DNA of 64,000 nucleotides, from the NCBI GenBank assembly GCA_030272155.1, contig CP126203.1:186001-250000 (forward strand), written 5' to 3'. This stretch comes from Tetradesmus obliquus. Taxonomy: Eukaryota; Chlorophyta; Chlorophyceae; Sphaeropleales; Scenedesmaceae. Shown in pieces: positions 2-64,000 of the stretch (positions are counted from its first letter, which is position 1; every line of letters starts with the position of its first letter). The notes below the pieces were generated by a model, which saw only the letters and a program-made list of their open reading frames with translations, was not told the DNA's origin and did not search any database. Made by a program: the position numbers and the translations under genes.

Positions 2-3000
2 GGTGCAGGTGACGACGCGGCCATACAGCCGTGGCTGGACCGGCTGGCCAGCAACCTGAAGCGCGAGCACGTGCTGCGCGTGATGCTCAACAGCTTTGTG
101 TGGTGCACCATCTTCACGCCCGTGCAGTGCGCCAAGGCGGCCGTGTACAGGTGGGTGACAGGAGAGGCGTCCACTTACTGCTGCTTTAGCCAACATGCGT
201 GTACAGGTGGGTGACAGGAGAGGCGTCCACTTACTGCTGCTTTAGCCAACATGCGTGTACAGGTGGGTGACAGGAGAGGCGTCCACTTACTGCTGCTTTA
301 GCCAACATGCGTGTACAGGTGGGTGACAGGAGAGGCGTCCACTTACTGCTGCTTCAGCCAACATGCGTGTACAGGTGGGTGACAGGAGAGGCGTCCACTT
401 ACTGCTGCTTTAGCCAACATGCGTGTACAGGTGGGTGACAGGAGAGGCGTCCACTTACTGCTGCTTTAGCCAACATGCGTGTACAGGTGGGTGACAGGAG
501 AGGCGTCCACTTACTGCTGCTTCAGCCAACATGCGTGTACAGGTGGGTGACAGGAGAGGCGTCCACTTACTGCTGCTTCAGCCAACATGCGTGTACAGGT
601 GGGTGACAGGAGAGGCGTCCACTTACTGCTGCTTTAGCCAACATGCGTGTGCAGGTGGGTGACAGGAGAGGCGTCCACTTACTGCTGCTTTAGCCAACAT
701 GCGTGTGCAGGTGTGCGTAGCTGCGACTTGTGGGTATGTGCATTGCGCCAAGGCCGTGTACAGGTGCGTCATGCGTCGGGAGGATGTTGGGTGTACAGTT
801 ACACGCGGTCTGCCAGCTCAACTGTAGGCAGCAACGACGGTGCTGCCATGCATGTCCTTGCTGGTGTTGGCGGACATGATAGTGGCAGACACTGGCGATC
901 ATGATAGTAGCATTGCTGCTACGCCGCCTGCAGTCAGTCGAGCACTTTGCACTGACATCCTGCTGACATCGCTGTTGCTTGCTCTGGTCCTTTGCTGCCG
1001 CTGCAGCCACCCCTGGTATGTGGACGTGCACGCCATCGTGTGTGTGATGTGTGAGGACGCGCTCACGCAGCCTGCCAGCGGGCAGCGCGCGCTGGTGTTC
1101 CCGCACCGCCTGCAGACCAGCCCGCTGCAGCAGATGCAGCAGATGGTGATGTGAGCGCATCGCGGAGTGCTGCGGCCGCTGCTGCTATTGGGCCGGCGCT
1201 GCACCAAGCTGCATGCAACGCCTGCAGCAGCACGGTAGCTGCTGTGGAAGGCAACTGTCTGTGCAGCTACGGAGCGTTGGTGCTGGGAGCTGTGTGAAGG
1301 TGCTCAAGGGATGTTTGTGGTTGTAAGAGGTAGTGGTTGCTATGCAACATCTGTCCTGCATGCAGAGTGAATCAGCATGCTGAATGGATGTGGGGTATGT
1401 GCATCGGCAAGCACAGCAGAGGCATTGTAGCTTCGCATGATTTTGTCTGGTTGTCATCCGACAGCTGTCCCATGTGGTGGGTGCAGCTTTGTGGGGCAGT
1501 GGCTTCTGTTCAAACCACCTTTGAAACCGCACCGCTGCGCGCAAAGAACGTGTGTCGGGGCCCTTAGCCAAGCATAACTGAGTTTTGACAACACTCTGCT
1601 GCGTGCAGCGGTGTCTGTTTTGTTTATGTTTGTCTGTCAGTGCGTGTGCAGCGATGAACTCAGTTGTCAAGCACAGCACGTGGTGGCGCGCCCTGGCGGT
1701 TGGGTGGGCGGCGTAGAGTTGGAGTATGCCTTATGTTGACGTGTGAGTAACTCGGCGGGTGCATTGGGGTGGGTTTGTGAGCATCAGCAACTCCGTTGCA
1801 TACTGTTGCTGCAGGCTGCTACATGCTGCGTGTTGCCAGGCGAAGGTATATCGTTGTGTAGTGTTGACCACGGCAGCTGCAACTTCAAGGCATGCCGAGT
1901 GCGCTCCACGTGCTGTGGTGTTGTGGCCTGTAGGGCTCTGCAGCGTTGTCGCGCTCAACATACATGTGTGCAGTTTCAGCATGTCTCACAAGATGCCTTC
2001 TTTAGTTCTGGAGCTTTGCCAGTCGCCTGTGGCAGGCCTTGCTGCACCAGCCTGTCAGTTGTAAACACAAGTAGTGGGGCAGTACGCAGCTGCTTTTTGG
2101 TGGCAAGTACAAACCTGTGCTAATGCTGCGCATACCAAGTGCAATGGTAATGACAAGAACTGTGTTTATGTTTTTCGGTTCCATGCGCTGCGGTTCCATG
2201 CGCTGCGGTTCCATGCGCTGCGGTGTTATGGAAAGAGCTGGTGGCACCGTTTGGCCATAGTGTGCGGCACTTGCTGCATCTCTTGCCCGCAAAGTGGGAC
2301 GCATGTGGCACAGCCTGCAGTACAGACAGCTTGGCTGTCTTTGGCAACATCCCCTTTCTGCAGTTGATACTGTTGGGCGTGTTCCAAACCAACCAGCCTG
2401 CTGCGCATTTTGGTGATGCACCCATCAGCGCAGCAGAGACAGCATTGCGTGCTGGTGGTTGCTGGTGGCTGCCGGTGGTGGCTCGTGGCTCACACATTGC
2501 CTGATGTGTGTTTGGGCTCATGGCAAGACTCTGGCAGCAGCTGCGCGGCATACGCGCTGCTGCTCGCATGACGCGCCTGCAGACTCGCGCAGTTGTGTTG
2601 CCTGCATGCTGTGTGGGTGTGCTTGTACACGTGGTTGGCGGACGGCAGCAGCAACCGTGTGAGTCAACGCCCCACAGGCATGGCGCGCCTGTGTGGCTGT
2701 GGTGCGGTCGGCACTGACCCGTCAGCGCTTCAGGGATTTACTATATGCTAGTAGCCTGGCAGCTTGCTGTTGCTTGCAGGCTGTTTCGTTTCTGGGCGTC
2801 ACTCTCAAGTACATGCATTGATTAATTCAGCGCTTGCTGCCATGTTGTGGGCAGCAAAGGGAGTTGTTGTCCTGGGCTGGCAACGGGGCGTGGTTTGTCA
2901 GCCTGGCAATGAAAGGTTGACGTTTGCTAAGCTGCAGTTGGCGCACACCTTTATATGCTCCTCCCCTGTTGCTGTCGTTGCGTGCTGTTCTTTGAAGCTA

Positions 3001-13584: not shown

Positions 13585-15860
13585 ATGGCAGACAACAAGG
13601 TTTGGCAGGCAGTGAAGCCCTACCTCAATGGAGGTGCAAGCGGCATGATGGCCACATGCATCATCCAGCCTATTGACATGGTCAAGGTCAGGCTGCAGCT
13701 GGGAGCAACAGGCGGCCCGGTGAGTGCAGCAGCGGCTCCAGCACTCCACTGCGCAGCAGCAGCTGCTGCAGTGCACGCTGCAGTATGTTTGAACCAGCAG
13801 CAGCATGTGCATCTGCGCAGCATGCCAGGGTGAGGCAGCTGTTTGCTATATTATTGCCTGCATACCTGTCACCAACAGCAGTTGATCAGGGGGTTTGGCC
13901 ATTTAGTGATCAGCATTGCTCCAGCAGTAAGTGTGCCATGCTGTACACATGCTCCCTAGCAAGCTGCTAGCATCCACGCTCTTTGCGATTCTTCGCTCAC
14001 TGTTTGGCCGCAACACGCAAAACTCTACTAGTCTTCCTCCCCTCTTACATCTCCTTGTGCTCGCACCTTCATTTCAACGCAGCTGGGTGTGGCCAAGGAC
14101 ATCATTGCCAAGGACGGCTTTGGCTCCCTGTACAAGGGCCTGTCCGCAGGCCTGCTGCGCCAGGCCACCTACACAACCGCACGCCTGGGCATCTTCCAGC
14201 AAATCACAGACATGGCAAAGAAGGCCAATGACGGCAAGAACCTGCCACTGTGGCAGAAGGCAGCATGCGGCCTCACTGCGGGTGGCCTGGGTGCACTGGT
14301 CGGCAACCCTGCAGACCTGACGCTCATCCGTATGCAGGTGGGTGTAGCAGACTGGCACTAGACAGACATTTTTAAGGCGTTGCAAGGGCTGCTGGCAGCC
14401 TGCAGGGTGATTTCCTTCATGCTTTTGCTGAGCTGCTTGTGGACAGCTGCTGTTGGGCTGCTGTGCTGTAAGCTTGCAGGACATGGTTGCATTAGTACCT
14501 GGTTGCTGATTTCAATTGTGCCACTGGTTCCTTACGCTGATCATGCTGCTGCTGTTGTATATCCTGCAGGCTGACAACACGCTGCCAGCAGAGCAGCGAC
14601 GCAACTACAAGAACGTGGTGGATGCCATGGTGAGAGGGGTGGAGGCCGGCTTGCAGCTGCGCTATGCTGCAGAGGCAGGCAGGCACCATGCAGGGGGCCA
14701 TGCAGGCAGGCCACATGCATGAGCAGCAGGCAGCAAGCCGCGAGCCTGCCTGCAGCTTACATGTCTAGCATCGTCTGGGCGCAGTAGCTGCTCCATTGGT
14801 CACCTGCCTGCCTGCTGCAGTGACGCATGCCGAGTCTTTGGCGCTTGCGTCTGCTGACTGGTTTGCATGTGTGCGGCACTCTCGCTGGCTGTCTGCAGAC
14901 ACGCATTGTCAAGGAGGACGGTGTGGGCGGCCTGTTCCGTGGTGGCGGCCCCACCGTGGTGCGCGCCATGTCCCTGAACATGGGCATGCTTGCCTCAAAC
15001 GACCAGGCCAAGGAGATGCTGCAAGCTGCAGGCTTCCAGGGGCAGACAGCAGTGCTGGGCGGCGCCATGATTGCAGGTGCGAGGCAGGCAGTTGCGCAGC
15101 GCCTGCAGCAGGCTTCAATGTGTAGCTGTATGTTGCAGCACATTTGCTAGTGGACAGCGAGGATGTGGAGGATGAGCGCAGTGCCTTGTGAGTGCAACAG
15201 CAGCAGCCTCTACAACTGCTGTGCTGGTTTCGAGTTGAGCTGTCTTCGTGTGGGGTGAGGTGCTGTATTGTCACACAGATGGTGCCCATGCCATCTGCTC
15301 TTCAGGCAAACGTATGCTGAGCCTCTGTCGCCTTGCTGTTATGTACCGTGCCGCCTGTTTTGTGTGCTGCTGCCTCTGCCAACAGGCTTCTTCGCCAGCG
15401 CGTGCAGTCTGCCGTTTGACTTTGTCAAGACGCGCATGCAGAAGATGACACCCAACCCCGATGGCACCATGCCCTACAAGGGCCCCATTGACTGCGCGAT
15501 GCAGACGCTAAAGAAGGAGGGCCCGCTCACCTTCTACACAGGCTTCCCCACATACCTCATTCGGTGAGTTGCCGGCACTTTGACCAACGCTCCTTGATGT
15601 GCGGTTGCTTTGGGGGTCAAATTGCTGCTGTGCAACTGCATGTCCTTGGCGCCCCACACGCCTCATCCCGCCATCTTCTACAGAGCCCTGGGCATGGAAA
15701 TCTGCTGATTACATTCATGCATGTCCTTGTTCGCATGTCACTGACTTTTGTGTTGGTCTTTCCCCTGCCGCTTTGCTTCTGCAGCATTGGCCCCCACGTG
15801 GTGTTCACCCTGATGTTCCTGGATGCACTCAACGTGTACCAGAAGCAGGCAGGCCTGTGA
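13585..15860 (+). CDS. mitochondrial dicarboxylate/tricarboxylate (oxoglutarate-malate) carrier, copy 1
   Basis: Six exons join in phase: 13585-13719, 14083-14337, 14570-14629, 14899-15076, 15386-15563, 15785-15860 (TGA), giving 293 residues. It is an SLC25 carrier of the inner mitochondrial membrane with the three expected signatures: PIDMVKVRLQ (from P29), PADLTLIRMQ (121-130) and PFDFVKTRMQ (from P219). Segments such as KGLSAGLLRQATYTTARLG and ADNTLPAEQRRNYKN closely match plant DTC and animal oxoglutarate carriers, which exchange 2-oxoglutarate, malate and related acids. The ATG is in a good context (AACCATGG) and the length fits the family. A tandem paralogue follows 1.8 kb downstream. 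Confidence 0.95.
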
Positions 15861-36200: not shown

Positions 36201-39200
36201 AGGCAAGGGCAGGCCAAATACAGCTTTGCTGTCACTGGCTAGCGCTCGCAAGCAGCATCTTACTGGCCAGTGCTAAAAGCTAGCACAGCTGGCAATTGCA
36301 TACCCCACAACATTTCACAGCACTCACCGGCATCAGGCAGGGGCAGGTCAAAGGCAGCATTGTTGTTGCTCAGCTCCTCCACCAGCACCAGAGGGGAGGC
36401 CGGCCGGCTGCCTGGTGCCACGCCAGCTGTCACCGTGAAGGTGATGGGGCTAGCGATGGTGGCCTGTGAGGGGCCAACCTTGGTCACTGCCAGCTCTGCG
36501 GGGCCTGGCTCGGGAGCCTGAAGGGGTTGTGCAACAATTGCAGCAGATCAAACAGAGCAGCAGCGTTTAGTTGTACATGGCATTTGGTCACCTGGCGAAC
36601 AGGTCAGCCTTGGTCACTGCCAGCTCTGCGGGCCCTGGCTCGGGAGCCTGCAGGGCTGAATTTTGAGAAAAAGCCGGAGGTTAGGTTCAGCAGCAAGAGT
36701 GAGTGATACATGGCTTCTGTTCACCTGCCCTTGGCCACCTGCAGCTCTGGGAGCTCTGGGAGATATAGAAAAAACAACAACAGATCAGATGCAGCAGCAA
36801 GGCTGAGTGATGGCATGTGAATAAATGCGCTTTGTCATATCAACACACGGATTTGTTTGCGCAGTAGCATTAGCGCCCCTGTTTCAAGCTTGGTTATGTA
36901 TCACCCTATCTGTGTCGCTGTAGAACAGCATAACAACACTCAGGCTGCAGCTGCGGCTGCCAGCCACTCACCGTGACCTCAACATTCACAGTGGCCTGGT
37001 TGTTGGATGGATTGACGTCATCGGCGCGGCTGCTGACTGCGGTGTTGGTGTACACACGCGCCTTGCGTGCCACTGTGGTGTATGAGACAGTGTAGGCTTG
37101 GCCGGGCAGCAACACCAGACCCAGCCAGTTGCAGGCAAAGCCCTGCAGGCTGCTGCGCTGGCAGTTGCCTGCATTTGAGGTGGCAGCAGATGATGGGGCA
37201 GGACAAGGTAACCTTAGTTTTGATGCAAAGCAAGGATCACACATCATTGCAGCAGCAGCATGGCCTTTTTCGTCTAAGGCTGGGCTGCATGTTGTCGCTT
37301 GCAGCGATAGTGTGACATGAGGCTGCCTGGAAAGCACAAAAGTGTGACAATGCCAGATGAGGCTGCCTGGAAAGCACAAAAGTATGACAATGCCAGATGA
37401 GGCTGCCTGGAAAGCACAAACGTGTGACAATGCCAGATGAGGCTGCCTGGAAAGCACAAAAGTATGACAATGCCAGTGCTGATAGTTGATAGGCTGTTTG
37501 CTAGCTCTACATTCTGTCCTGAAGCAGTCAATGGATTTTCGTTGTCTCTGCGCTTACCGCTTGGCACTGATTCAATGTCTCCAAGGATCTCCAGTCCTGT
37601 GGGGCTCATCGTATCAACAAGCTCAGGGTTCACAACAGCAGCGCCCGGTGCAGCAGTCAGCGTCACCGTAAAGACAAAGGTGGGAGGGTCACCGGCATCC
37701 ATGACGCCGGACGCCTTGCCGACAGTTTTTGTGACGATCACATCTGTGGGTGTTGGCGGCAGGGTTGGCTGGATGACTGTGACAGTCTCACTGTCGCTGG
37801 CAGTGCGGCTGGTTGAGTCTGTGATGACAGCTGCGTTGGTGAAGCTTCCAGTGCTGCTTGCCACGGCAGGGACAGTGATGGTCACAGCGTCATTTGTGCT
37901 CCAGCTGCCGGTGAGCTGGCACACCAGCTGGCTGGCAGAAGCGCCGGCCACGCATGCTGCAGGTGGCAAGCAGGCAAGTACAAAACATGGCAGCAGCAGC
38001 AGCAGCAGCAGCAGCAGTGTTTAGAACCATTCACCCATCTACTTCTTACATGAAGTGCATTTGTATACTAGCTGTACTCGAGCACCTGCACAGGAACACG
38101 GCTGCCTGCCTTTCACCTAATGGCATGTGCTCCTGCATTCTCATCCATTGTAACAACTACAGCAAGCACATCTGAGGGCATTACTATGTGCATCGAGAAG
38201 AGGGACTCACTTCCGGTCCTGCTGCCTCCAGCTGTCTGCGTCCACACAGGGGTGCGGCCAGGTGCAAAGGCCAGGCCATCTCCCATGGTATCAGTCACAA
38301 TGACGCCCGTTGCAGCGCCCACAAATGTGACGGCGATGCTGAAGTCGAATGGCACATTGGCCACGGCAATGCCTGGGCTGCTTTTGTCGATGGTGAATGG
38401 CGTGATGGGCGGCGTAGGCGTAACAGGAGGAACAACGGCGTTCTGCAGGCAGGTACAACACAGCACAACAGCAGCAGCAGGATGGTTCGATCGCCTGTGT
38501 GGATGGCAGGGGATGAGGCAGACGCTGCACCTGTGTTAATCAAGGTGTGAGTGGCTGGCAGAAGCAGCCACGTGCGTCAGCAAGGAGCAAGCTGATCCCT
38601 TGACCAAGGCTGTGTCTAAGTGCACATTACCGTCGCATGAGTCAGCCAAGCAAGCCGATTGAGGGTTGCAAGACAGCACTCACAGCTTCGCAGCAGGCTG
38701 TTTGCTGGTCCTGTGTGCTGAGGCCCTGGATAAAGATGCTCCCTGGGCTGGCCTTGCGTGTGGTGCCCGGTGCACAGTTGAATGGAGGGCTGCCACTCAG
38801 TGCGCCGTTGGTGTCCGCACATGACGCAGCCTGTATGGAGCAGCAGGCAGCGAGGTAGCAGCAAGCTGATGCATCAGCACGTGTGTCCCAAGTTGGACAT
38901 AACCTACACTGAAGCATAATTGATATTCAAGTGCAGCTGATGTGACCTGCGTCACCATGCCTGCTTTGCATACGTGGTTTGGATCAGGTGTTTGCAGTAA
39001 GTGTGCAGCAGTGCTGCTCAGTACTCACCGCCTCACAGCAGGCGGACTGCTTGTCGCCTTGCAAAGTAAGGCTCTGGATGATGATGCTGCCTGGGTTGGC
39101 CTTGAGCGTTGTCCCAAGATCGCACTGGAGCTGGAGGCTGCTGGGCAGAGCGCCGTTGGTGTCCGCACAAGTCGCAGCCTGCGACAATATTGCAGCAGCA

Positions 39201-42200
39201 CAGCATGGCGTGAATGTCGTAAACGGGAACACTGCCAGTACACATGCGTTGGCGCGGCACGGCAGAGCAGCATAACGAAGCACTATGTTCTGCAGTCTTG
39301 GCTGTACCTCCCGCCGTCCCTGCAGTGACGCCAACACAGCGGCTTTTGCAGTCCACCAGCACAGCTAGTGAAATCAGGACTCGCCAAGGTTATGCAACAG
39401 CCTGACGTACGTACTTGGGTGCACCCAAAGGGCAAACAAGTGCGGGGCGTGGCATGCACTTGTGCGAAGCATGCGGCGCTTTCTTCAGCTCACCTCCTCA
39501 CAGCAGGCGGATGTCTTGTTTGCCACGTTTTCAATCTCAAGGTTGTCCACGCCCGATTTGCCTATGTAGCCAGGAGGACAGCCGAAAGGCACACCATTGG
39601 AATCACCGCAAGTCTCCACCTGTCGCAGCACAGCATGGCAGCCTGTCAGCCTGGCAAACGGCCGCCCTGCATGCTGTGCGGACACACTGCATGGACAGCT
39701 GCATGCAATATTGTCACCATGCTGGCCGCTGTGAAGCAGGGAGTCGCTATCCTCCTGCGCAGTCTTTGATAGTTCATGCCGTGCAATCCTTGGTCATCTC
39801 GAGCTGGCGCTTTGAACTGATTCGAATCAGTGTGAGTCACACACTTGAGAGCTTGAGCTTCTGCTGTGTCAGAACAGATGCCCACACCTGCGTGTGGCAG
39901 CAGCACTAGGTGCAAACAGATGTGCACATAATGCAGAGCCAGCCCTGTGGAAGCCGGCCCCACCCACCTTTACGCAGCAGGCATCCCTCCGGGAGTCGTC
40001 AAGCGTGCTGAGGTTTTCGATGACAACCGTGCTCGCAGCCGCTTTGTCCTTGTACCCGGAAGGACAGACGAAGGCGTTTTGTGCTCCATTTGCTCCATCG
40101 GCATCTCCACAGGTGGCAGCCTATCATGCAACACAGCAGCAAGCAGACAATGAACAGGTCGTGGCCGTCTGTTAGCACCGGCACCGGACTGTCACACTTT
40201 AGCCGCTTTTGCAGCAAATCTTTGCTTTCAACAGCTAAGCTTGGCCCAGTGCTGGCTGTGCCACTGCCTGCATCCTTGCAACGACTGTCAACACACAATG
40301 CTGACCCAGGAGACGATTGAATTGCATGACACCAGGTGGGCCGAGCACATTCTGCATGGTCACCACAGTCTGCCACACATTATATAGCTATAAACAATTT
40401 TGAACACAGTCAATGCTCGCTGCCGCTCTCACAGAGCAGACCAACACAGAAGCTGCCGAAGCAAGTAGAGTGCATTGCAGAACAGCACTGCAAGCAGGCG
40501 CAGCTTACCGCCTCGCAGCAGGCAGCATTCTTGGCATCATCGTTCATTGTTTGTATCACAGTAGCTGCCACGTTTGCCTTCGGCCTGAAACCCGGGCGGC
40601 ATGCATAATCGGAGTCTCCAGCTTCGGCGCCGTTGGCATCACCGCAAGTGGCGGCCTGCGTTGCGCACCACAGCAAGCGGGGCAAGTAACAGCATGTAAC
40701 AGATGTAATGGCAGTAGGCGGCAAGCAAAGCAGCAGCTCTGCAGCCATGCCCTGGCTAGAACCTCAATCAGCTGCTAGCCTGCCTACATCGAAAGCGGCT
40801 TGCACGCTCGCAGCACTTGCAAATGCAAGCTATGCTGGGAGATCAGGTGCAAAAGGTTCCTTTCTGTGAAGCCCATTGCAAAGCCGTGTTGAAATACACA
40901 GCACCAGCCACCGCAGAGCCTGCTGCACTCACCAGCTCGCAGCAGGCGTCAATCTTTTCGGCGTCTGTCAGGGCCTGGATAACGAATGAGTCCACGCCAG
41001 TTTTACGCCTGTAGACACCTGTGCAGCTGTAGGGGGCTGCACTGCCATTCGCGCCATCGGCATCTCCACACGTGTTGGCCTGACAGGGGCACGCATGAGA
41101 CACACAGTTTGCAGCACAATGGTGAGCGTGCTTAGTTTCCAGCCTGTTCTACGGTGACCACAAGCACGCACCATGCATGGCAGGTAGTGAGCAGCATGCA
41201 AACATGGCCCATGTCCGACCCACATATGTCAGGCTTGCGCATTATGCTTCTACAACTGCGGCGCCTGCGCTGTACACTGCCGGCAGCAGCACAAACAGCT
41301 CGACATCAAAACAAAACAGCTGCTGTGAGCTGTCGCCGTAGCCTGCACATGCTGTGCGCTGAGCGGCAGGCGAACATTCCCACTCACCGCCTCGCAGCAC
41401 GTGGCAGTTTTCTGATCGATTTCCAGTCCCTGAATAGGGCTGCTGGCCACACCGGACTTGGCCCTGAAGCCGTCAGGGCAGTTGTAAGCGTCATTGTTGC
41501 CGTCAGCTCCGTCCGCATCTCCACACGTGGCAGCCTGATGCGGATCAGCCACACAGCAGCCAGCAGCATCATGCGGAAACACATGAGGACACACACAGCA
41601 GTTGCATGTGCGAGTACATGTGCGCATTGTAGTAAACTTACACATGCGTGGGACGGCGTTCAGGAGAGCATACATTTGTGCGCTTGCGGCTCCATGCATG
41701 CACACCTAGAACCACACTTGCCTGCATGTGCAGCTTGTTATCTCAACGTTGCACTCAGCGGGACAGAACAAGCTCTTACACACTTGCTCAGCAGGCTCTG
41801 CACGACCCAGATGCACCCACCAGCTCACAGCAGGTGTCCCTTTTGTCATCAGCAGTCAATGCGGAGATGTCTTTGGTGCCAGCCCCAGGCTTGGCTCTGT
41901 AGTTTCCAAGTGCAGCACAGTCGAATGCAGTCTGCCCAGCGCCATTACCGTCGATGTCTCCACAAGTGGGATTGTTGGACACCTGCAGCAACGGACAGCA
42001 TCTGATGGTGTAACCGCCAAGTCTGAGCGTGTGCGACTTCATCACGTCCGGCAATATTAGCATCAATATCATATTGTGTACAAAACAACTATCATATTGT
42101 GATGACTGTTACAGGGCCACAGTAGCATCAACCACACCAGCAGGCAAATTACCAACACAAACGCGACTGGAGGCAGCTGGCAGGCCGTGCAACAAACTTG

Positions 42201-44112
42201 CCCAATGTGTAACATCAGCAACAGTCTGTCCAGGCACCTGCATGCCTGCAAATCTCCAATGCATGCATAGTAATATAAATCCAGCACGAGAGCACATCCA
42301 GGCAAGTGCTGTCCACAAGCAAGGCAACTTGGGACAGCTTGCAAGTGCTCAGCAGCACCTTGCACCAGCCGCAGCAAGCTACATACCGGGTCGCAGCAGG
42401 CAGCATCCTTGGCAGCATCGGTCAAGCTGTCAATGACGATGGTGTCACGACTTGGCTTATTCTGGAAGTTAGCAGGGCAGGTATGTCCTGCGGTCCCAGA
42501 TTGTGCACCATCAACATCTGCGCAGGTGGCGGACTGCAGCACAGCCCACAACAGCCCACAACAGCGGCACAGCACAGCAGGGCAAAGTGAGTGCCAGAAC
42601 GTCAAGCAACGCCAACGATGAAATCTATGAGTACAATCAAAGGCAGAGCATGGCTGTATCTGCAAAAGTCAAGCGAACAGTACAGCGCTTTGCAAAGCTC
42701 TCTGCTGCATTTCAAGTGTTTCAGCAGCATCTCGCTGCAGTCTCTGCTCAGTGTAACATGTTATAATCAAATTAAGCTGTGTGAAACAACACAAAGTGCA
42801 CATCAGCAGGCATGCAAAGAGCCGCTGCAGCAGGGCAACAGCAAGCAGCAGCAACAGCACCAGCAGCTGAAAGGCAGTGTCCCAGGTGTATGTGGGTGTG
42901 AGCTGCGTTGCAGCTACAGCTGCTGGCGCTCACCCGCTCACAACACTTATCGCGCTGAGCGGTTAAAGCCAGGCCTTGGATGACCTCAGAAGACACGTCA
43001 CTCTTTGGTTTGTAGCCAGGTGGGCAGCTGTATGCATTCGGCGAGCCGTTAGCACCGTCAGCATCTGCACACGTGGCAGCCTGGAAACAGCAGCGGCAGC
43101 ACAACTGGCTTTCAGGACAGATGCTCAAATTGCAAGATGCCACACGGCATTCTGGTGCTCAGCCGAGCTCATGCAGTGTCATGTCGCCTCTTCAGCCTGC
43201 TGAAGCACATGCCAAGGCTGGCAGCTAGACAAGCAGCACAGCTCCCCCTCAAAGCTGCTTCGAGTGCATCACATTTGCAGGAGGAAGCAACTATCATGCG
43301 CATGTCTCGACATTAATCCTGCTTTAGGTAGCCGCATACCCACCAGCTCGCAGCAGGTATTCTGGCGGGCGAGCTCCAGCAAGTCCTGAATCGAAGTAGC
43401 GCTGACGCTGGTTTTGGCCCTGTAGCCGGGTGGGCAGCTGTATGGGTCAGGTGTTGGTGTGCCTCCGTTGCGGTCTCCGCAGGTGTCCCCCTGGCGGGTT
43501 CAGATGGCGCAGTGCGGCAAGCAGGTCAGGTGCCAAGCATGCACTGTATTTTCCGTTGTGTGGCGCATGCATCAGTGACCAGGTGCTTCAAACTATGTTT
43601 GGTTGCATGCCACAGCGGCTTCAGGCTCTGCTGGCTGTTTCAGTTAGCAAAGCATTGCGGCTAGCATATAAGATACTCAAGGCACGTGGCTTGGCAACCA
43701 GCCACATATGTTGGCGATCTAAAGCGCTTGCATGCGGTACATGTGTTCCAGCGTACAGCGTAGCAGCGCCTAGACATACCATATGCTGTGCTGCTGAACA
43801 CTGCAACTGCGCAGCAGGTGCACGTGCATTCCAGGCGGCAGTGCCGCTCACTGCAGTGGCATGTGCCAGCTCTACGCATGTGCCAGCTCTACACATGTGC
43901 CAGCTCTACGCATGTGCTGCGCCTGCACTCACCAGTTCACAGCATGCGTCCCTTCTGACGGTGCCGGTTGTGGACAGGGTTGAAATGTCGAGCGTGCTCA
44001 CTCCGGCCTTCGCTCTGTATCCGGAGGTGCAGGTGAAGGCGCCCTGCGGTCCAGACGGGCCGTCAACATCGCCACAAGTGGCAGACTGGTGGACGATAAG
44101 AGCAGCAGCAGC

Positions 44113-52339: not shown

Positions 52340-55300
52340 TCACAGCGCGGAGCACGATGCAGCATGGAATGCATTGCACTGGTAATCCTGGATATTCTTC
52401 TGCGCCTGTGCAGACGCAGACCTCGGGTACTTCCCCTTGCTCTTGCAGGCCGCCAGCTCGCACTTGCCGTTCATCGCGCAATACAGCCCGCTGCCGCACT
52501 CGCCAAACCCTTTGCAAGCGCTGCCGCGCGGCTTACACGTGTTTTGCGGCGCGCAAACACTCACGCCGCCGTCAGCCACAATGCAATCCAAACCTCCGCA
52601 GCACTTCACACCGCCTGCAGTGAGGCCGCAGAAGCCGCCCGGCCCTGCGCAGTGAGGCTTGTATGGCACGCAGTCTGGCACGCAGTAGTAACGGCCGTAG
52701 CGGCCGGACTGCTGGCAGCTGTAGCCCGGGCAGCAGGTGTCGGATGCAGGGCTGCACTGCATGCACTTGCCCAGGCAGGGCTGCGGCAGCAGAGGCAGCA
52801 GCAGCAGGCAGGGACGCTTTTGTGAGAGAGAAATGTGATGCAATGGATGTGCAAGGATGATGAGCCAGCACACGTGTCTATTCTATGGAGTTGGTGATGG
52901 CATACAAACTGATCATGACTTGGCTGCCTTGTTAGGGACACAAAAAAGCTCGCCGCACAAAGCCTGCTGCATGTGCTGCTGGCACCACCCATGCTCACCC
53001 TGGGGCAGTAATTCTAGTCGAAGCAGTTTGGTGTGCAGCCTGGCTGCTGCCATAACTAACCATGAAGTCACCCATGCATATCCCATGCATTCAAAACCGC
53101 AGATCGCTGCAAGGCTCACCCTGGGGCAGTAGTTCTGGTCGAAGCAGGTGCTGCTGCCGTCCCACTTGCCAGGGCAGGCCGCCTTGACTGTCATCCAGCA
53201 CTGAGCCTTGTTGCTGTTGCCGTTGGTGCAGCAGGCGCCGGTGCAGAACCTTCCGGTGTAGCAGGCATCCATGTCTGGCGACCACATGCCTCCGGCCCTC
53301 TGGCAGGGGATCTTGGCTACGCCGGCGCTGCAGCCGTAGTCCTTGTCGCAGCAGGACCCCAGCACGGGCTCCTGCAGGGGTGACAAGGATGCAGGAGGAC
53401 ACACAGAAGGAGATGCAGCGGCATTATCAGGCTTGCAGAAAGGGCATGCGGCATGACGTGAGTAAAGCTGACTGCGATGCAGGCATGCTGTCCATGTGTA
53501 GCACATTGTACCAGCAGATGTGCTGAAGACGCTCATGCTCATGCTCATGCGCACCCCGATGCAACGACAACCTGCTGGAACAACAGTTTGACGGAATACA
53601 ACAGCTGTTGCTGGTATCAGCTGTTGATCTGACACATGTTGCTACTACATCAGCTGATTTGCATGCACAAAATAAAACAAAGGCACGCCACATGTTGCAG
53701 CAGCTCACCCAGACTGTGACGGTGTCCATGTTCTTGACGGTGTTGGGGGCGCTGCCAACCTTGCAGGGCTTATACATCGCACTCGCAATGTCTGTTATGG
53801 TGCCGGCTGTGGCGCCAACAGCTGTAAACTGCATGGAAACTGGCTTGCTGAAGGAGGCTGTGAAGATGCAGCGCAGTACGTTGTTGCTGCCTTTTGTAAC
53901 GAAGCTGCACTTTGCTCCGGCAAAGGGCTTTGTGATGATGGGCTTTGTCAGCATGGGTGGAATCAGGTTATCCATCACCACGCTGTACACGGTGCCTTTG
54001 GGATGAGTGTGATGTTCCAAGTGAAGATCCCGCCCTGTGCAGCACAGTCAGCAGCAAGCACAAAGAATTTACAACGGGAAAATGAGACTGCAGCACAGCT
54101 ACCGTCGCAGCATGCGTGCACATCAAACCGAAGATGAAAGAAAACAGCTGTCCCATGTGGTGCTTTGTGCACAAGCTAGTTGCTGCAAGTAAACATCAGG
54201 CTGCTTGGACCTGTCGTCCGCACTCAAACACTCACCTTGCCTGCCTTCTTTGGGACCCCCACCACGCTGATGCCCAGCGTGGAGTTGCAGACCTCAGGAA
54301 CCTTCTCAACCTGCAGCACATCCCGGCAGCAGCAGCAGCAGTAGGTGGTTGATGTTGTGGTGGAATAACTTTGGGACACTCAGCAGTTGGAGCTCTGTAA
54401 CATGTTTAGCATGGCAAGACAGTGCACATCGATGCGTTCAAAATATGCAACACAGCGCAGCACCAGCAGCAGCACCAGCAGCAGCACCAGCAGCAGCACT
54501 GGCTGGAATAAGCCAGGACGGCTCACCGTGACAACAGCTGGCGGGGAGGTCTTCTTGCACTTAAGGTCAACCATCCAGTCAACAACGACACATGCACTCT
54601 GGCAGCAGCAGTGGTTGCGAGAAACATCCTGTTGCACACGCTCCATGCCAGATGTCGCACACGCCCCAAACCAGCAGCGCTGGCGACTCACCGTGACAAC
54701 GGCTGGTGGCGAGGTCTTCTTGCACTTGGGGTCCACCGTGCCCTGGCCCGGCGTGTCGCAGTTGACGACAGCAACATTGGACAGCTTGCCGATTTGTGAG
54801 CCATCCGCAAGGCAAGGAATGGCGATGGTACGCGTGTCACCCATGGCGATGGTGCCCAGCGCGCAGGTCAGCTTGCGCGTGTTGGCGGCATCAAAAGTGC
54901 AAGCTGCAGCATAAGATACGCGGTGCAGCAGAATGCCATTGTCAATGTGTTTTTGGAAGTGCAGGGTGCAGGTAACCTTGCGCATGTTGGCGGCATCAAA
55001 GGCAACAGGTGCAGGCTGCAGGCATGAAGGGCAGCATCTGATATCAGCATAGTGAGTACTGTCAGCATGCACATGGCGGAAGTTTTGCAGGGAACATGTG
55101 TAGAATAAATCTGTACATGTGCAGGAGAAGTTTCGGTTATTGCTGTAACATTTGTTGTGTGCGCGTGCACCAAGCAGCCACTGCACCCCTCAAAGGGCTG
55201 CTGTAAATTACACTAGCAGCTTCAGCATCTGCTTGCTGAAGCTGCACATACGTCCCACCCTTTTCCTAGCAGCTGGGGCATTGTGCAACCTGCTGCTGTT

Positions 55301-58300
55301 ACAACCCACCATTGGGGCCAACATCTGGTGTGACGCTCCAGCGGTCAGTGTAGGGCTTCAGCCCAGCCGGCAGCGTGTCAGAGACAACCACCTTCTCCGC
55401 AATTGTGTCGGAGAGGCCTGCCTGGTGTGTGACTTGGATGGTGAAGGTGACGTCCTGTCCGACCTGCACCTTGGCGTCACTCACACGCTTCACCACGATA
55501 ATGTCTGGTGCCGATTGCGCTTTGAGGGTCTGCAGTTAAAAAAGTGTGCGGCAGCAAGTGGTTGTGGACGGCTGTAGTGCAAACTGCACTGCAGGTGCTA
55601 GCTGCTTTGGAATATGTGTTGCAAGAGACAGGCATACACACAGCATTGCGCACTGCTGAATCAGTGTTGCAGCTGCTGAGCAGGCAGATGCAAGAACTCC
55701 TATACTGCACAAGGAGGGCGAAGAGCAGCTTGACCAACCCGCATGCCACTCACGCAGCAGTTGATGTCGTTGGCTGGTGACTTGCCAGCAAACCTCGAAT
55801 CGTACTCATACCCAGCCGGGCACTTATTGTACGGCTTGCCCCCTGGCATCACCTCACCACATGTAGACAAAAACACCGTGACATTCGCAGAATCTGTGGG
55901 GTTCCCTTGGCCGGATAGCAGCGCCACATTTTCAAACGTGCCTGCAACCGTGCCAACAGCTGTCAGCTTGACTGTCTGAGGCCATGGGCCAGTCAGCTTG
56001 CAGCTGAGCAGGGATGCTGTGACCTCGCAGGCCGCTGCAGGGGTGGCACGGAGGAAGGTAATGCCGCTGCCGACTGGTGGTGTGTCGACGAGGGTCACAG
56101 ATGGCATTGTGCCTGACACCAGGTTTGCTGTGAGGGTGAAGTCAAACTCCTCATTGACAGCAACAACCCTGCCGGGACCGTCCTTGAGCAGGGTAAACTT
56201 GACCTGCAGGGGCAAGTGGGAGAAGATCGGGTGCAGCGGTTGGCAATGATGCGCACATGGGCATGTGTCTGAAGTGTGCTGCGCATGTCAGGCTGACGGC
56301 TGAGCTGGTGAACTGCCCATCTGGCGTTTCACACATGTCAGCTGTTGCTTTGCAGCACACAACGCTGTAGGGAGCTGCCGTTGTCAGCCGACCTGCACAT
56401 CCTAATCCCTGCTGCGCGTTGTGCCTACTTGCCCTGCCTGCCAGGCTGCAACTACCTAGGTACTACGCTAAAGGCGGCTGCTTCAGCATTGCACTGACCA
56501 CCAACCACAAAAAATAGCAACATTGTAACATTCCAGCCAGCTGGCTGGTCTGCAGGCCCTAGGGCTCAGGGCCACAGCTGCAGCTGCGCACCTCCGCTGG
56601 CGGCACCTCTGCATTCAGAATGACAGTCTTCTCAGCCGACTTGGGCGTGGCATTTGCGCTAGACACCGTTGCCACATTCTTGATGGTTTCGGCATCGCTG
56701 CCTTTCACAGTGAACTGCAGCGTCTTGGTGTCACCCGCACCCACATTGTTCCAAGTGCAGGTGGCGCGCTGCTTGTTGTCCAGCTTGCAGTCTGCAGCAG
56801 TGCAGCGGTACACACAGCAATGCTACATCCTTTGAACGGCTGCTGCTCTATTGACACTTCATTTGGGTTCTACAAAATGGCCAAGGCTTGACCCTTGAGA
56901 CAGCCGCTGCATCCTGAAGGCCGCCTAGCCGAGTTTGTCATGCATGCTGCATGCTGGTAGCAAGGACTGGGCCTAGTGATGCGAGAGGATCTCACTCGGT
57001 GGGTCAGGCAGTGGTTCCACAAACTCCGCCTTGGGTGAGTCCAGCTGCTCCACAAGTGTCAGCACAGCAGCAGGCGTGCTGTTGGGCGCCACGCCGGCAG
57101 TGACAACAAAGATGACAGGTGCATTGACCAGGGCCACATCAGGGCCTGTCTTGCTGACAGCAAGCTCTGGCGGGCCGGGCTGGGGCTCCTGCAGGTGGAG
57201 CGGCAGCAGGCAAATGGAAAAGGTTAGAGGAAGCAGGTACATGTGGATGGTTTCACTGCCTGACGTAGACTGTTAGACCTGGCACCAACTCCTGCAGCCA
57301 AAAATGCGAGTAGACAGGCACACAAAATGAGAGAAAGGGAGGCTGCTTTGATTGCTATTGCGGACGGAGGTGAGCACATGGTTATGGAAAGTCTCATAAC
57401 TGACTGAACATGGCGAATCATGTATGCGCACGCAGCTTTTAAAGCGGCAAGGTGTAATTGGGGTACTCACCGTGACAGTGACTGTCACAGCCGCCTCGTT
57501 GTTGTTGGGATCCTTGTCACCCGCGGGAGCGCTCTTAGCAGTGTTGACAAACGTGCCAGCTTGCCTGGCCACTGCCGTGTAAGTCACTGTCACACTCTGC
57601 CCTGCCTCCAGCCTCATCCCCAGCCAGCCGCAACTGAAGGCCTGCAGGCTTGTCTTTTGGCAAAAGGCTGCATGCAGTGCGGCAGTGGCAGCACACACAA
57701 CCAACAACTAACCATCTGGTTGGAAGCCAGCACGAAGAGTTCTTTTTTTGCAATGGGGTGCTTAACAGCTGCTGCAGGCTATGGCGTATCACCTTTGTTG
57801 CCAGCACTTCTGCTGTTTGCCACCATTTTGCTTGCCCCTCAAGGTGCAAATGCATGCCGATGCATGCAGGCGCCAACCCATCTACCACTACTACCAACCA
57901 CTCGAGAATGTGCGGCAGGAACAACCCAATTGCAACACACATTGTGACATGATGTAGGCATGACATTGATCCTCAGTCAAGCAGGGCTCACCGCTTGGTT
58001 GAACAGCCCCGAGGAGCTCCAGGCCTGTTGAGCTGATGCTGTCAATGACAGTGGGGTTCACCACAACAGAGCCTGCTGCAGCCGTGAGTGTCACTGTGAA
58101 GTCAAAGGTGGGGTTGTCACCCTGGCCAATGACTGCAGAGACCCTGTTGACTGTCTTAGTGACAATGACGTCAATAACATCCTGCAAACAAAGCAAGAGC
58201 ACCACCACCATGCCTGGTTATTAGCAACATCAGATCGAGCAGCGCAGGCTGTCACATGCTGTCATACAGTCTGCTTGCAGATCAGGCAAGGTGCACAAAT

Positions 58301-61300
58301 CCACTGTAACGGCTTGTCCTGAAACAGCTGCTGCAGTCATAGCTCACTCACCGCTGGTATGTTTGCAAAGACAACCACAGTGTGATCGTCACTGGCTGAA
58401 TGAGGAGGGGCTGCGTTGTCATACACAGTAGCAGTGTTGACTCCAAAGGCTTGTGCGCCTGACGCCACTGCCGGAACAGTGATGAGCACTGTGTTGCCCA
58501 AAATCCAGCCATCACCCAGGTCACAGCGCAGTGTGTTTTCCACGGGAGCATTGCAGGCTGCAGCAATAACAACGCAATGCAGCCACATGTGGGGCAAGAA
58601 AGACACGGCAGAGCAGCAGCAGCAGCAATGCAGGGGGTTAGCAGGTGCAGATCTCTAGAGCTGCAATGCACATCCTTTTGTAATGTGGTGCGATGGCCAT
58701 GCGGCTGTTGGGCCTGGAGCTGCACACATGTGCAAGGCGTGCAGCTACTCGGCATTACGGCAATCACAATCGACCGTCTCTGCAATCCATGAAAGTTGTC
58801 ATCAAGCAGCTGAAGATAAGTCACCCACGTCCAGACCCGCCAGCTCCCTGCCAGCTGGCAGCAGCTGCCCCAAACGAAGGCCATAACCCAGCTGGTCCAC
58901 GGCACGCACTAGCCACCAGAACGACATGACAGAACCGCAGCTGCACATGTGTGACAACTGGCACAGCCACGCAACACACATGCTTTGCTGCAATCCAACA
59001 CCAGGCGCCAGCTGAGGAAGCTCAAGAAGTAAAAAATTGACGTACCTCCAGACCTGCCAGCGCCCTGCCAGCTGGCAGCAGTTGCACCGAATGACAGGCC
59101 AGTGCCCAACGTGTCCACCACATACACACCAGAGGCAGGCCCCAAAAAGTTGACTGTGATTGTGAAGGTGAACGGCACACCTGCGATGACTGTGGCTGGG
59201 CCATCTTTTTGCAGCAGCAGCGGGTTCAGGACTGTGATTGGGGGTGGGATCAGATTCTGCAGCACAGAACAATGAAAACACAGCAGATTGGCAGACAGCA
59301 GGCAGGTGCCCAGTGCACGTGCAATCAGCTGTGCTAGCTTGCAAAACGGCTCAAATGGGCACTATACAAAACAAAGACTACAGAATGTCAGCATTTGATG
59401 CATCACATATGACAGAATGCCATGCTGCACAGATGACCCTGTTGGACAATAGTCTTGGCTGGCTCAGCTCTGTGTACTTATGGTCATATATAGCGAGGAT
59501 CATCCGTTCATGTAAATGAACGACAATTCTGCATGTACGTTGTGAGAAGCAGCATCGCAATTGATGTGATGGTGTTGTGCTCAATGCCTGCACAACATCA
59601 AGGTAGCACTTGCGGCAACAGCTGTAACTACATTATTGTGCTTGCAAGCATTGTGTTATGACCTGATCGCAGCATCTGTCTCTCCAGTTGTTGTTGACAT
59701 TGTTGATGCCTGTCAGCTCAGTGGTAGCAAAATCGGCCTTGCGGCTCCAGCCGTCAGGACAGGTGACGGCTGGCGTGCCTGCTGTAATCCCGTTGGTGTC
59801 AGAGCACGTGGGGACCTGCCGCAGGGCGCCGGCACGCCAGCGGAGCACATGAAACACATGCAGCTTGAACACGTGCATTGTGTTAGGTACCCATCCTGGC
59901 ATCGCAGATGCCTTTGCCATATGCACACTTGCTTGCTTTTGATCTCATGCAGCGCTGCCGCTGCAGGGCTGCCTGTAACAGGCAGTTCTCACAGCGCCTA
60001 CAAAGATATGAGCTGTTGATGATGATCCATTGGTGTGCTGCGACTAGTTGAGGCAGCACTAGCACAGCCACCATACGCAGCTGCAGTGAATGTTGTGTGT
60101 CCCAGCTGTGTCCATGCCCTCACCTGAACGCAGCATGCGTCCCTCCGGTCGTCACGAACATCTGCTGGCAGGGGGGTTAGTTCTGGGTTGGCTATGGGGT
60201 CATAGCCGCCAGGGCACTCAAAGGCTGTCACGCTGCCTGCAGCACCGTTCATATCGGCACACGTGGCATCCTGGGGCAGGCAACCAGCACAGCAGCACAG
60301 TGGCAGGGCCGTCAAAGCAGAACACCAGGCTGCAGTGTAATCAGCAGCCTTGGGTGCCGCAATGCACGACAAGCAGTGTGCAGTGGGGAGGGGCAGCATC
60401 TGCCACCCAACTTGATGACGCCAGGTCCCACATGTAACTTGCATCAACATTGCCAGCCACCATCCTATACTGGTCCTGGCCTGACCGAAGGGTATGGTTG
60501 GTGGAGGTCACATGTGCTGTCTGCCCAGCACAGAACAGCATGTGTTCAAACTGGCCTCCTGCACTGCTTGGATCTCAGCTGCTTCACTTGGTGTCAACAC
60601 TACTGTTGCAGGTGAAAAACGGTCCGCTGGTACGGCAGCACACCGCCGACCTGCATGCACCAGCAGTTCTGTGGAGTGCAGCTCCGGCGGCGCAAGGAGC
60701 CAAGCCTTTCATCAATGGATGGGTGCTGAGCACTCACCTGATCGCAGCACGTGGCCACCCAGCGATCACTCGCTATGACTGTCAGCTCAATGGTGGAGTA
60801 GCCGGTCTTTTGGGTGGAGCCGCCAGGGCAGGTGACGGCTGTCCCACCGTCATCAGCGCCATTGGTGTCAGCACACGTTGGGACCTGTCACGGGACAGCA
60901 GCAAAGCGGCAGTGTAGCATGGAACGCATGCAGCATGCAGCAGTGCATCTGGTCGGGCATCTTCCTGTGCATGTCCTTTGTTGCTGGCGCATGCGTCACA
61001 CTGTGTTCTGCAGCCATCCAGCGCTGCTACTGCAGGCTTGGATGCATGGCTGCCAGTGACGGACAGTGAAAACAGCATACACAGACTTGCGCTGTTGGAG
61101 TCGCACATCCACGTATGCTGCATACCCTGAAGCAGCGCCGGCACAACCAGCTGATTGCCAGCAGCGGCCCCAGCAAAACCAGCACGTGCCTTCACGTGTG
61201 CGCTTGGTCATGAACACTGCTGCTGCTGTGTGTGTTTTTGTTGCTGTGTGTTTCTGTTGCTACTGTCAGGCTCACACACCAGCCGTATCCCTGACACACG

Positions 61301-64000
61301 CGCACCAGGCTGCGAAACCTGAGCAAACCACAGTGCCTGACAGCATTCAACACAATGAGCGCTGCCAGCAGCTGGCTGTGCTGTGTGCCCCAGCTGTGCG
61401 CCGCGCCCTCACCTGGTTGCAGCATGCGCCCCTCTGATTGTTTACATCCGCTGGCAGGGGGATGGTGCCTAGGTCGGCTTTGGGGTCATAGCCGCCAGGG
61501 CATTCATATTCTGTCACGCCGTCTGCGGCACCATTCATGTCGGCACACGTGGCACCCTGGGGCAGGCAGCCAGCGCAGCAGCACAACGGCATAGCTTTCA
61601 AAGCAGAAATGCAGGCTGCAACGCCGTCAGCAGTTTTGAGCGCCACACAGCATTGTGCAGTGGGAAGGGACAGCATCTGCCACCCACTATCTTGGTGCAA
61701 GGACCCACGTGTAACCATCATGTCTCATTGCTAGCCTCCAACCTACACCTGTCACCGCCGACATGCAGTGTGGAGTGCAGCTCCGGCGGCGCAAGGAGCC
61801 AAGCCTTTCATCAATGGATGGGTGCTGAGCACTCACCTGATCGCAGCACGTGGCCACCCAGCGATCACTCGCTATGACTGTCAGCTCAATGGTGGAGTAG
61901 CCGGTCTTTTGGGTGGAGCCGCCAGGGCAGGTGACGGCTGTCCCACCGTCATCAGCGCCATTGGTGTCAGCACACGTTGGGACCTGTCACGGGACAGCAG
62001 CAAAGCGGCAGTGTAGCATGGAAAGCATGCAGCATGCAGCAGTGCATCTGGTCGGGCATCTTCCTGTGCATGTCCTTTGTTGCTGGCGCATGCGTCACAC
62101 TGTGTTCTGCAGCCATCCAGCGCTGCTACTGCAGGCTTGGATGCACGGCTGCCAGTGACGGACAGTGAAAACAGCATACACAGACTTGCGCTGTTGGAGT
62201 CGCACATCCACGTATGCTGCATACCCTGAAGCAGCGCCGGCACAACCAGCTGATTGCCAGCAGCGGCCCCAGCAAAACCAGCACGTGCCTTCACGTGTGC
62301 GCTTGGTCATGAACACTGCTGCTGCTGTGTGTGTTTTTGTTGCTGTGTGTTTCTGTTGCTACTGTCAGGCTCACACACCAGCCGTATCCCTGACACACGC
62401 GCACCAGGCTGCGAAACCTGAGCAAACCACAGTGCCTGACAGCATTCAACACAATGAGCGCTGCCAGCAGCTGGCTGTGCTGTGTGCCCCAGCTGTGCGC
62501 CGCGCCCTCACCTGGTTGCAGCATGCGCCCCTCTGATTGTTTACATCCGCTGGCAGGGGGATGGTGCCTAGGTCGGCTTTGGGGTCATAGCCGCCAGGGC
62601 ATTCATATTCTGTCACGCCGTCTGCGGCACCATTCATGTCGGCACACGTGGCACCCTGGGGCAGGCAGCCAGCGCAGCAGCACAACGGCATAGCTTTCAA
62701 AGCAGAAATGCAGGCTGCAACGCCGTCAGCAGTTTTGAGCGCCACACAGCATTGTGCAGTGGGAAGGGACAGCATCTGCCACCCACTATCTTGGTGCAAG
62801 GACCCACGTGTAACCATCATGTCTCATTGCTAGCCTCCAACCTACACCTGTCACCGCCGACATGCAGTGTGGAGTGCAGCTCCGGCGGCGCAAGGAGCCA
62901 AGCCTTTCATCAATGGATGGGTGCTGAGCACTCACCTGATCGCAGCACGTGGCCACCCAGCGATCACTCGCTATGACTGTCAGCTCAATGGTGGAGTAGC
63001 CGGTCTTTTGGGTGGAGCCGCCAGGGCAGGTGACGGCTGTCCCACCGTCATCAGCGCCATTGGTGTCAGCACACGTTGGGACCTGTCACGGGACAGCAGC
63101 AAAGCGGCAGTGTAGCATGGAAAGCATGCAGCATGCAGCAGTGCATCTGGTCGGGCATCTTCCTGTGCATGTCCTTTGTTGCTGGCGCATGCGTCACACT
63201 GTGTTCTGCAGCCATCCAGCGCTGCTACTGCAGGCTTGGATGCACGGCTGCCAGTGACGGACAGTGAAAACAGCATACACAGACTTGCGCTGTTGGAGTC
63301 GCACATCCACGTATGCTGCATACCCTGAAGCAGCGCCGGCACAACCAGCTGATTGCCAGCAGCGGCCCCAGCAAAACCAGCACGTGCCTTCACGTGTGCG
63401 CTTGGTCATGAACACTGCTGCTGCTGTGTGTGTTTTTGTTGCTGTGTGTTTCTGTTGCTACTGTCAGGCTCACACACCAGCCGTATCCCTGACACACGCG
63501 CACCAGGCTGCGAAACCTGAGCAAACCACAGTGCCTGACAGCATTCAACACAATGAGCGCTGCCAGCAGCTGGCTGTGCTGTGTGCCCCAGCTGTGCGCC
63601 CTCACCTGGTTGCAGCATGCGCCCCTCTGACTGTTTACATCCGCTGGCAGGGGGATGGTGCCTAGGTCGGCTTTGGGGTCATAGCCGCCAGGGCATTCAT
63701 ATTCTGTCACGCCGTCTGCGGCACCATTCATGTCGGCACACGTGGCACCCTGGGGCAGGCAGCCAGCGCAGCAGCACAACGGCATAGCTTTCAAAGCAGA
63801 AATGCAGGCTGCAACGCCGTCAGCAGTTTTGAGCGCCACACAGCATTGTGCAGTGGGAAGGGACAGCATCTGCCACCCACTATCTTGGTGCAAGGACCCA
63901 CGTGTAACCATCATGTCTCATTGCTAGCCTCCAACCTACACCTGTCACCGCCGACATGCAGTGTGGAGTGCAGCTCCGGCAGCGCAAGGAGCCAAGCCTT
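52340..64000 (-). CDS. gene B: tandem paralogue of gene A, 5' end outside the window
   Basis: Twenty-one exons are visible, about 1,450 residues, ending at a stop at 52340. In coding order: eight Cys-module exons (63749-63606, 63082-62936, 62655-62512, 61983-61837, 61556-61413, 60884-60738, 60270-60124, 59815-59663); DUF11-like exons (59256-59046, 58557-58352, 58181-57992, 57667-57471, 57188-56996, 56791-56592, 56203-55754, 55529-55310, 54903-54692, 54310-54236, 54034-53709); and two Cys-rich exons (53371-53120, 52780-52340). Phases agree throughout except in 54034-53709, which is one base out of frame. Domain order matches gene A, and several exon lengths are identical (441, 252, 220, 197 bp). 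The role is inferred as an extracellular matrix or wall protein, as for gene A. The signal peptide is not in the window. Confidence 0.82.
52985..53032 (-). pseudogene. decayed copy of a gene B exon end plus donor
   Basis: Repeats the end of exon 53371-53120 (TGCTTCGACCAGAACTAC, then TGCCCCAGG|GTGAGC) 121 bp downstream, but CAG has become TAG, giving an in-frame stop. The donor GTGAGC is intact. Confidence 0.85.
53985..54034 (-). other. apparent one-base frameshift in gene B
   Basis: Exon 54034-53709 starts in phase 0 with GGIFTWNITLIP, matching the gene A segment KGSLLTWTLTLTP. The remainder that matches gene A (KGTVYSVVMDN onward to the donor) lies in another frame. The exon is 326 bp, which is not a multiple of three, while both neighbours require phase 0. 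The shift falls near TCATCCCAAAGGCACC. It may be a real disabling change or a sequencing error in a short A/G run. Confidence 0.7.
54527..54580 (-). repeat. copy of a gene B exon end plus donor
   Basis: The end of exon 54903-54692 (AAGTGCAAGAAGACCTC, then GTTGTCACG|GTGAG) recurs 165 bp downstream with the reading frame preserved (DLKCKKTSPPAVVT) and an intact donor. Confidence 0.85.
54968..55019 (-). repeat. copy of a gene B exon start
   Basis: CTGCAG|CCTGCACCTGTTGCC, then TTTGATGCCGCCAACATGCG repeats the start of exon 54903-54692 about 116 bp upstream, with an acceptor and a following GTTACC donor-like site. Confidence 0.8.
58815..58875 (-). repeat. copy of a gene B exon end plus donor
   Basis: The end of exon 59256-59046 (GCTGCCAGCTGGCAGGGCGC, then GGTCTGGAG|GTACG) recurs about 223 bp downstream as GCTGCCAGCTGGCAGGGAGC, then GGTCTGGACGTGGGTG. 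Confidence 0.8.
59663..60270 (-). repeat. older diverged pair of Cys-module exons in gene B
   Basis: Exon 60270-60124 (DATCADMNGAAGSVTAFECP) is the same type as the ADMNGAADG exons of the 1.1-kb array, and 59815-59663 (VPTCSDTNGITAG) is the same type as its ADTNGADDG exons. The order is the same, so this is an earlier copy of the two-exon unit, now well diverged. Confidence 0.8.
60671..64000 (-). repeat. 1.1-kb tandem array of a two-exon Cys-module cassette
   Basis: The word GTGGAGTGCAGCTCCGG recurs at 60671, 61770, 62869 and 63963, spacing 1099, 1099 and 1094 bp, and whole units are nearly identical. Each unit carries two in-phase exons: one type with ATCADMNGAADG (144 bp) and one with PTCADTNGADDGG (147 bp). 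Units 2 and 3 share variants absent from unit 1 (GGAAAGCATG versus GGAACGCATG; GATGCACGG versus GATGCATGG). Unit 3 has a 5-bp intronic deletion near 63600 and an N-to-S change. The fourth unit continues past the window edge. Confidence 0.95.

Follow-up and report, generated by a model that had tools for sequence, protein, structure and literature searches.

Probable recent multiplication of an in-frame exon pair in a Tetradesmus obliquus gene for a Cys-rich repeat protein

Near-identical stretches of about 1.1 kb, each holding two exons, stand in tandem in one gene of the green alga Tetradesmus obliquus. Has an exon pair multiplied here recently, or have the units of an old array been kept alike? 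The gene, hereafter called gene B, lies in the window, by which we mean the whole stretch of DNA analysed (64,000 nt; GCA_030272155.1, contig CP126203.1, positions 186,001-250,000). Our genome-wide searches covered the 17 contigs and 104,662,953 bases of this one assembly, in which the window's contig is called C13. The available part of PMC12571836 gives the assembly as 104.70 Mb in 17 contigs with 56.5% G+C; G+C is 56.4% in the 87 kb that we read. One exon of a D1 protease (family S41) in our reading is identical to PDB 1fc6, a structure from Scenedesmus obliquus, at 62 of 62 residues, and another S41-protease exon has a distant likeness to the same structure. Gene drafts were made with a home-made splice model, whose output had doubtful 13- and 20-bp exons inside the introns of the array and lacked the signal-peptide start. 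We relied on the drafts for the module exons and the DUF11 stretches only.

Units of the gene B array

The window and the 23 kb past its edge were compared with themselves, with limits of at least 90% identity and at least 150 bp. The only kilobase-scale tandem array in this stretch is that of gene B, which comprises three direct units of 1,099, 1,099 and 1,094 bp on the minus strand (60670-63961). Unit 1 (60670..61768) consists of exon B1 (61413..61556), an intron, exon A1 (60738..60884) and flanking intron. Unit 2 (61769..62867) contains exons A2 (61837..61983) and B2 (62512..62655). Unit 3 (62868..63961) contains exons A3 (62936..63082) and B3 (63606..63749), and has a 5-bp intronic deletion beside the B3 donor. 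Elsewhere, window positions 142-713 form a minisatellite of ten 56-bp copies with 99% matches, and the self-comparison also gave dispersed pairs at 14079/18444 and 15383/19881 and a 195-bp-spaced pair at about 70.3 kb.

The units are remarkably alike. Two substitutions separate units 1 and 2 (distance 0.0018; Poisson 95% limits 0.0002-0.0066), one substitution and the 5-bp deletion separate units 2 and 3, and three substitutions and the same deletion separate units 1 and 3. The array introns (280 bp and 523-528 bp) match as closely as the exons. A reading of the sequence alone had described three near-identical units of about 1,099 bp, introns included, and at two to four events per pair this is confirmed. 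The same reading had each unit adding 97 residues in frame, and indeed it does: exon A spans 49 codons (147 bp) and exon B 48 codons (144 bp). On the minus strand, each exon follows an AG acceptor, is followed by a GT donor and is phase 0-0, which keeps the frame, and each codes for exactly one Cys-rich module. The likeness, phase and layout of the units are beyond chance.

At the protein level, A1, A2 and A3 are the same, B1 equals B2, and B3 differs by one Asn-to-Ser change. Phase 0-0 exons stay in frame in any subset and would in that respect suit a Dscam-like gene, in which exons have been expanded so that one or another can be chosen for different isoforms. However, the exon copies of a Dscam-like set differ from each other, and copies as nearly identical as these would offer choice without variety. 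We regard such a function as scarcely credible for gene B, and all copies are presumably retained in its mRNA.

The sequence-only reading also had a fourth unit starting at the window edge. A unit does begin there (63962..64000 within the window, minus strand) and runs beyond the edge, but it is near-identical to about 64170 only, and diverged from there on. This near-identical part is the first ~208 bp (one mismatch), made up of exon A less 6 bp and 68 bp of intron; exon A4 itself lies beyond the edge (64030-64176 in window numbering, minus strand). Overall the unit is 77% alike, and its B-to-A intron agrees at 72% of aligned positions. When unit 4 serves as outgroup, a single change is private to unit 1, and one substitution and the deletion are private to unit 3; a C-to-A change at unit position 256 is the one derived base that units 2 and 3 share. 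That base lends weak support to the proposal from the sequence alone that the youngest pair is units 2 and 3 or that these two have been homogenised; units 1 and 2 are just as close, at two events, as units 2 and 3.

The Cys-rich modules and their ages

Gene B begins with a signal-peptide-like start, followed by Cys-rich "TCAD...CC" modules and then DUF11 repeats. Starts of this kind were recognized by eye in gene B (near 67976 in window numbering, outside the window) and in gene A. On the strength of its start, the gene B protein is probably secreted, and it is plausibly located at the cell surface, in the wall or in the extracellular matrix. The DUF11-type stretches occupy the 3' part of the gene (54527..59361, minus strand, exon limits approximate; C13:241347 and C13:243480). 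Among ten reading frames there, two score above the 24.6-bit Pfam cut-off for DUF11 (PF01345; 27.5 and 40.9 bits), five are weaker and three have no match. Further Cys-rich frames at 52343-53641 could either close gene B at its 3' end or be part of another gene, and one of them has a sub-cut-off match to Toxin_12 (E 0.01).

Gene A has 12 module exons (38684..44085, minus strand), all diverged and in the same phase as those of gene B. The draft proteins A and B align at 33% over 1,130 columns, so that tandem paralogy of the two genes seems likely. Gene A showed no near-identical array in the self-comparison at the limits given above (at least 90%, at least 150 bp).

We found 23 modules in total, 11 in gene B and 12 in gene A. 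An alignment of 20 of them, which omits three identical young copies, has six invariant positions: C4, D6, G9, C19, C46 and C47. The module also has a D-x-[DN]-G motif, which we take to resemble calcium-binding loops. Module A has no Pfam match, and a Pfam assignment for module B was rejected because its single match was at chance level (E 0.057, under the cut-off). CCP or sushi domains have a conserved Trp and four separated Cys. We rejected this identity for the module, which has adjacent C46 and C47 and no invariant Trp in 20 modules. We likewise set aside the CCP profile matches in PDB, the best of which had E 1e-4; they covered 18-33 positions and no stretch passed alone. An AlphaFold model of the module has a mean pLDDT of 89.3, and a Foldseek search with it returned no matches at E<=10, which is weak evidence for a model of 49 residues.

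The same Cys module occurs elsewhere in the genome at C5:5485303 (E 1.7e-4), C1:10409768 (E 0.036) and C16:1184186 (E 0.095), and on reading these loci we found clear module copies at all three. Near the C1 gene there are long minisatellite arrays with 36- and 66-bp offsets (positions 1-4031 of C1:10405001-10415000). A search with a gene A module gave 30 pattern matches in viral_contigs and 183 in genome_contigs, none of them confirmed; the two collections cover viruses, bacteria and archaea, and the result bears little on algae.

Not all modules of gene B are young. Older, diverged A and B modules flank the array on both sides: A0 (59663..59815, minus strand) and B0 (60124..60270, minus strand) on the downstream side, and B4 and A5 on the other. 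The array is the youngest layer of an older module series, and module ages are graded within the gene. Compared with B2 or A2, the older copies have dS 0.35-0.73 and dN/dS 0.32-0.57, and A5 compared with A0 has dS 0.33 and dN/dS 1.0, values that are rough for exons this short. The old modules look mostly constrained, and the young layer is new.

Arrays in related genes

Does gene B stand alone? A whole-genome search with DUF11 gave 40 listed matches from 63 scored candidates. Fourteen of the 40 are in neighbour pairs that cover the same profile range with scores no more than 0.3 bits apart, and they fall at three loci. Each locus contains an array. On C5 (823-6312 of C5:1285001-1292500) a two-exon cassette is repeated in a 948-bp unit, with 5.79 copies. 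Among the five full units, one carries two changes and the other four match at 100%, and the partial copy that ends the array is 98.8% identical to the first. On C17 (605-3919 of C17:2363801-2369300) the unit is 891 bp, again with a two-exon cassette, and is present in 3.72 copies, the three full units being 98.8-99.8% alike. On C10 (839-5491 of C10:5053201-5061000) a 685-bp unit contains a single-exon cassette and a GCA microsatellite. Five of the six units read there are 97.8-100% alike, and the first is 86-88% alike.

The cassettes of C5, C17 and C10 code for 160, 162 and 149 aa, in each case a DUF11 domain followed by a ...C...CC module. Their exons are 175 and 305 bp (C5), 175 and 311 bp (C17) and 447 bp (C10, one exon). 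The exons are phase 0 with GT donors, and a cassette is a whole number of codons: 97 in gene B, 160 in C5, 162 in C17 and 149 in C10. Thus young in-frame cassette arrays are present in at least three DUF11/Cys-module genes related to gene B.

These parallels bear on the possibility that the gene B array is an artefact of assembly, with one unit falsely duplicated or two haplotypes joined end to end. The units are few and near-identical, and the identity of four of five full C5 units fits an artefact too. However, the units of gene B can be told apart by private variants and by a deletion, their contig measures 5.02 Mb and starts with CCCTAAA telomere repeats, and one class of genes contains four arrays, each with its own unit and every cassette in frame. 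An artefact is therefore quite unlikely.

Are young arrays a general property of repeat genes? Two control families were screened by almost the same rule for neighbours (matches on one strand, within 0.31 bits and 3 kb of each other). None of the 149 WD40 matches listed qualified (150 of 515 candidates scored). Six of the 140 Ephrin_rec_like matches listed qualified (150 of 623 candidates scored), all in one array of seven exons spaced ~360 bp apart (C10:2491901-2494700). Its copies are 62-87% alike, and so the evenly spaced array proved old; we rejected the idea that all extracellular repeat genes have young arrays. A limit of 6 kb in place of 3 kb let 15 of the 140 listed Ephrin_rec_like matches qualify; the extra nine, about 5 kb apart on C14, are probably whole-gene duplicates. 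Equal-score Ephrin_rec_like matches occur at C14:527172-546948 and C8:1401929-1451007 with spacings of ~4.9 kb and 34.5 kb, and these sets look like recent duplicates of whole genes or segments. SRCR and He_PIG had no match in this genome; SRCR had none in 14 control genomes either, so that its lack of matches here does not establish absence. The controls, two families in one genome, hint that young arrays are enriched in DUF11/Cys-module genes.

Each of the C5 and C17 arrays is uniform within and different from the other. Between the two, cassette exons agree at 71-73% and introns at 45-54% of aligned positions, whereas within a locus the figures are 98-100%; each array therefore became uniform independently. 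This pattern also fits the main rival explanation of the gene B array, namely concerted evolution without recent growth, in which a long-standing number of units would be kept alike through gene conversion or balanced crossovers.

Array edges and the origin of the units

The ends of the arrays carry information on how they arose. We worked out the edge positions by hand at three of the four loci (gene B, C5 and C17). Beyond the whole units, the periodic stretch continues for ~208 bp in gene B, 750 bp in C5 and ~642 bp in C17. In C5 and C17 this excess is one whole exon-intron-exon cassette, and the edges fall 0-20 bp from exon ends. On the upstream side the edge is 6 bp inside A4 in gene B, ~11 bp inside exon X in C5 and at the first X acceptor in C17. 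The downstream edge lies 68 bp (gene B), 13 bp (C5) and 12-20 bp (C17) past the last donor.

Blunt tandem duplication within introns, by replication slippage or end joining and with exon homology irrelevant, would also give direct in-frame copies, as any tandem duplication through phase-0 introns does. Yet it leaves an overhang of a few bases, far short of the excess seen at these three loci. The ~208-bp excess of gene B thus argues for recombination or conversion between homologous exons, and blunt duplication is highly improbable. Such recombination or conversion would stop where the flanking introns are unrelated and leave an excess of just this kind.

Concerted evolution is harder to set aside. 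Near-identity alone cannot distinguish recent growth from homogenisation, so the very recent expansion of a two-exon cassette proposed from the sequence alone holds as one or the other. Conversion also accounts for the near-identical A4 block, with edges that end where the flanking introns are unrelated. However, concerted evolution alone leaves unexplained why units 1-3 share one layout while the introns of units 4 and 0 have diverged, and growth together with conversion is simpler. We consider concerted evolution alone unlikely. The gene B array is probably a real, young, in-frame multiplication of an exon pair by unequal crossing-over and gene conversion in a gene for a secreted modular protein.

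Such a multiplication could have proceeded as follows. A and B module exons would already have alternated in the ancestral gene B. Unequal crossing-over between exon-A copies, A1 and A4, which share the ~208 near-identical bp, would have duplicated the 1.1-kb stretch between them. Later crossovers in the 1.1-kb homology, together with gene conversion, would have given three near-identical units. For the near-identical A4 block, this scheme needs a first duplication that was itself recent, or else a conversion at an earlier time. From the sequence, copy-number polymorphism of the array is plausible, and copy number may continue to change.

Arrays of this type are known: intron-containing cassettes are repeated in other genes for secreted proteins. 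In the available parts of the sources, LPA KIV-2 has a 5.6-kb unit with exons of 160 and 182 bp in 1 to >40 copies (PMC6314250), and SmPoMuc of Schistosoma mansoni has ~1-kb exon-and-intron units with introns >94% identical in secreted mucin genes (PMC2576457). Like LPA KIV-2, the gene B array has a two-exon, intron-containing unit repeated in tandem and in frame in a gene for a secreted protein; LPA KIV-2 differs in being human, in coding for a kringle domain and in its proven copy-number polymorphism, and gene B in its green-algal host, a Cys module outside Pfam, units of smaller size, evidence from one assembly, and parallel arrays that bring the loci to four. SmPoMuc shares the ~1-kb intron-containing units in a secreted-protein gene, but it belongs to a parasite, has a 27-bp exon between microsatellites, and its variation was demonstrated by Southern blot and transcripts, whereas the gene B array has two domain-coding exons per unit and is known here from one assembly. 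With its near-identical tandem units of exons and introns and a frame-neutral unit of 97 codons, the array has two features of an intragenic multi-exon VNTR of the LPA KIV-2 type. Gene B resembles DUF11 proteins in its 3' half, as do the C5, C17 and C10 cassettes, which code for DUF11-type domains; unlike in those proteins, its own cassette is not DUF11, and DUF11 is here coupled to Cys modules. Among the titles and starts of abstracts listed in our searches, we found no description of the gene B array and, for DUF11 in green algae, none of such genes. New features are the organism group, a module family absent from Pfam, and the occurrence of such arrays at four loci in a single class of genes.

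Changes in the array would probably act on length, in a secreted protein that is rich in Cys and built of repeats. With module exons of phase 0-0, the protein would grow or shrink in steps of 97 residues and stay in frame. If copy number differs between strains, secreted algal proteins would here have a source of length variation that can be counted. Assemblies from short reads probably tend to collapse near-identical arrays of this kind.

Exon duplication and shuffling are normally deduced from old remains, and here four related genes of one compact algal genome seem to have been caught early in the process. Their cassettes are frame-neutral, the modules of one gene differ in age by degrees, and at three loci the breakpoints can be read. 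We tentatively raise the possibility that Tetradesmus has a class of 'accordion' genes, coding for large secreted proteins of the DUF11/Cys-module type, in which recombination seeded at exon boundaries keeps multiplying, removing and homogenising the exon cassettes. If so, several wall or matrix proteins would vary in length from strain to strain, perhaps with effects on colony form, adhesion, and attack by grazers or parasites.
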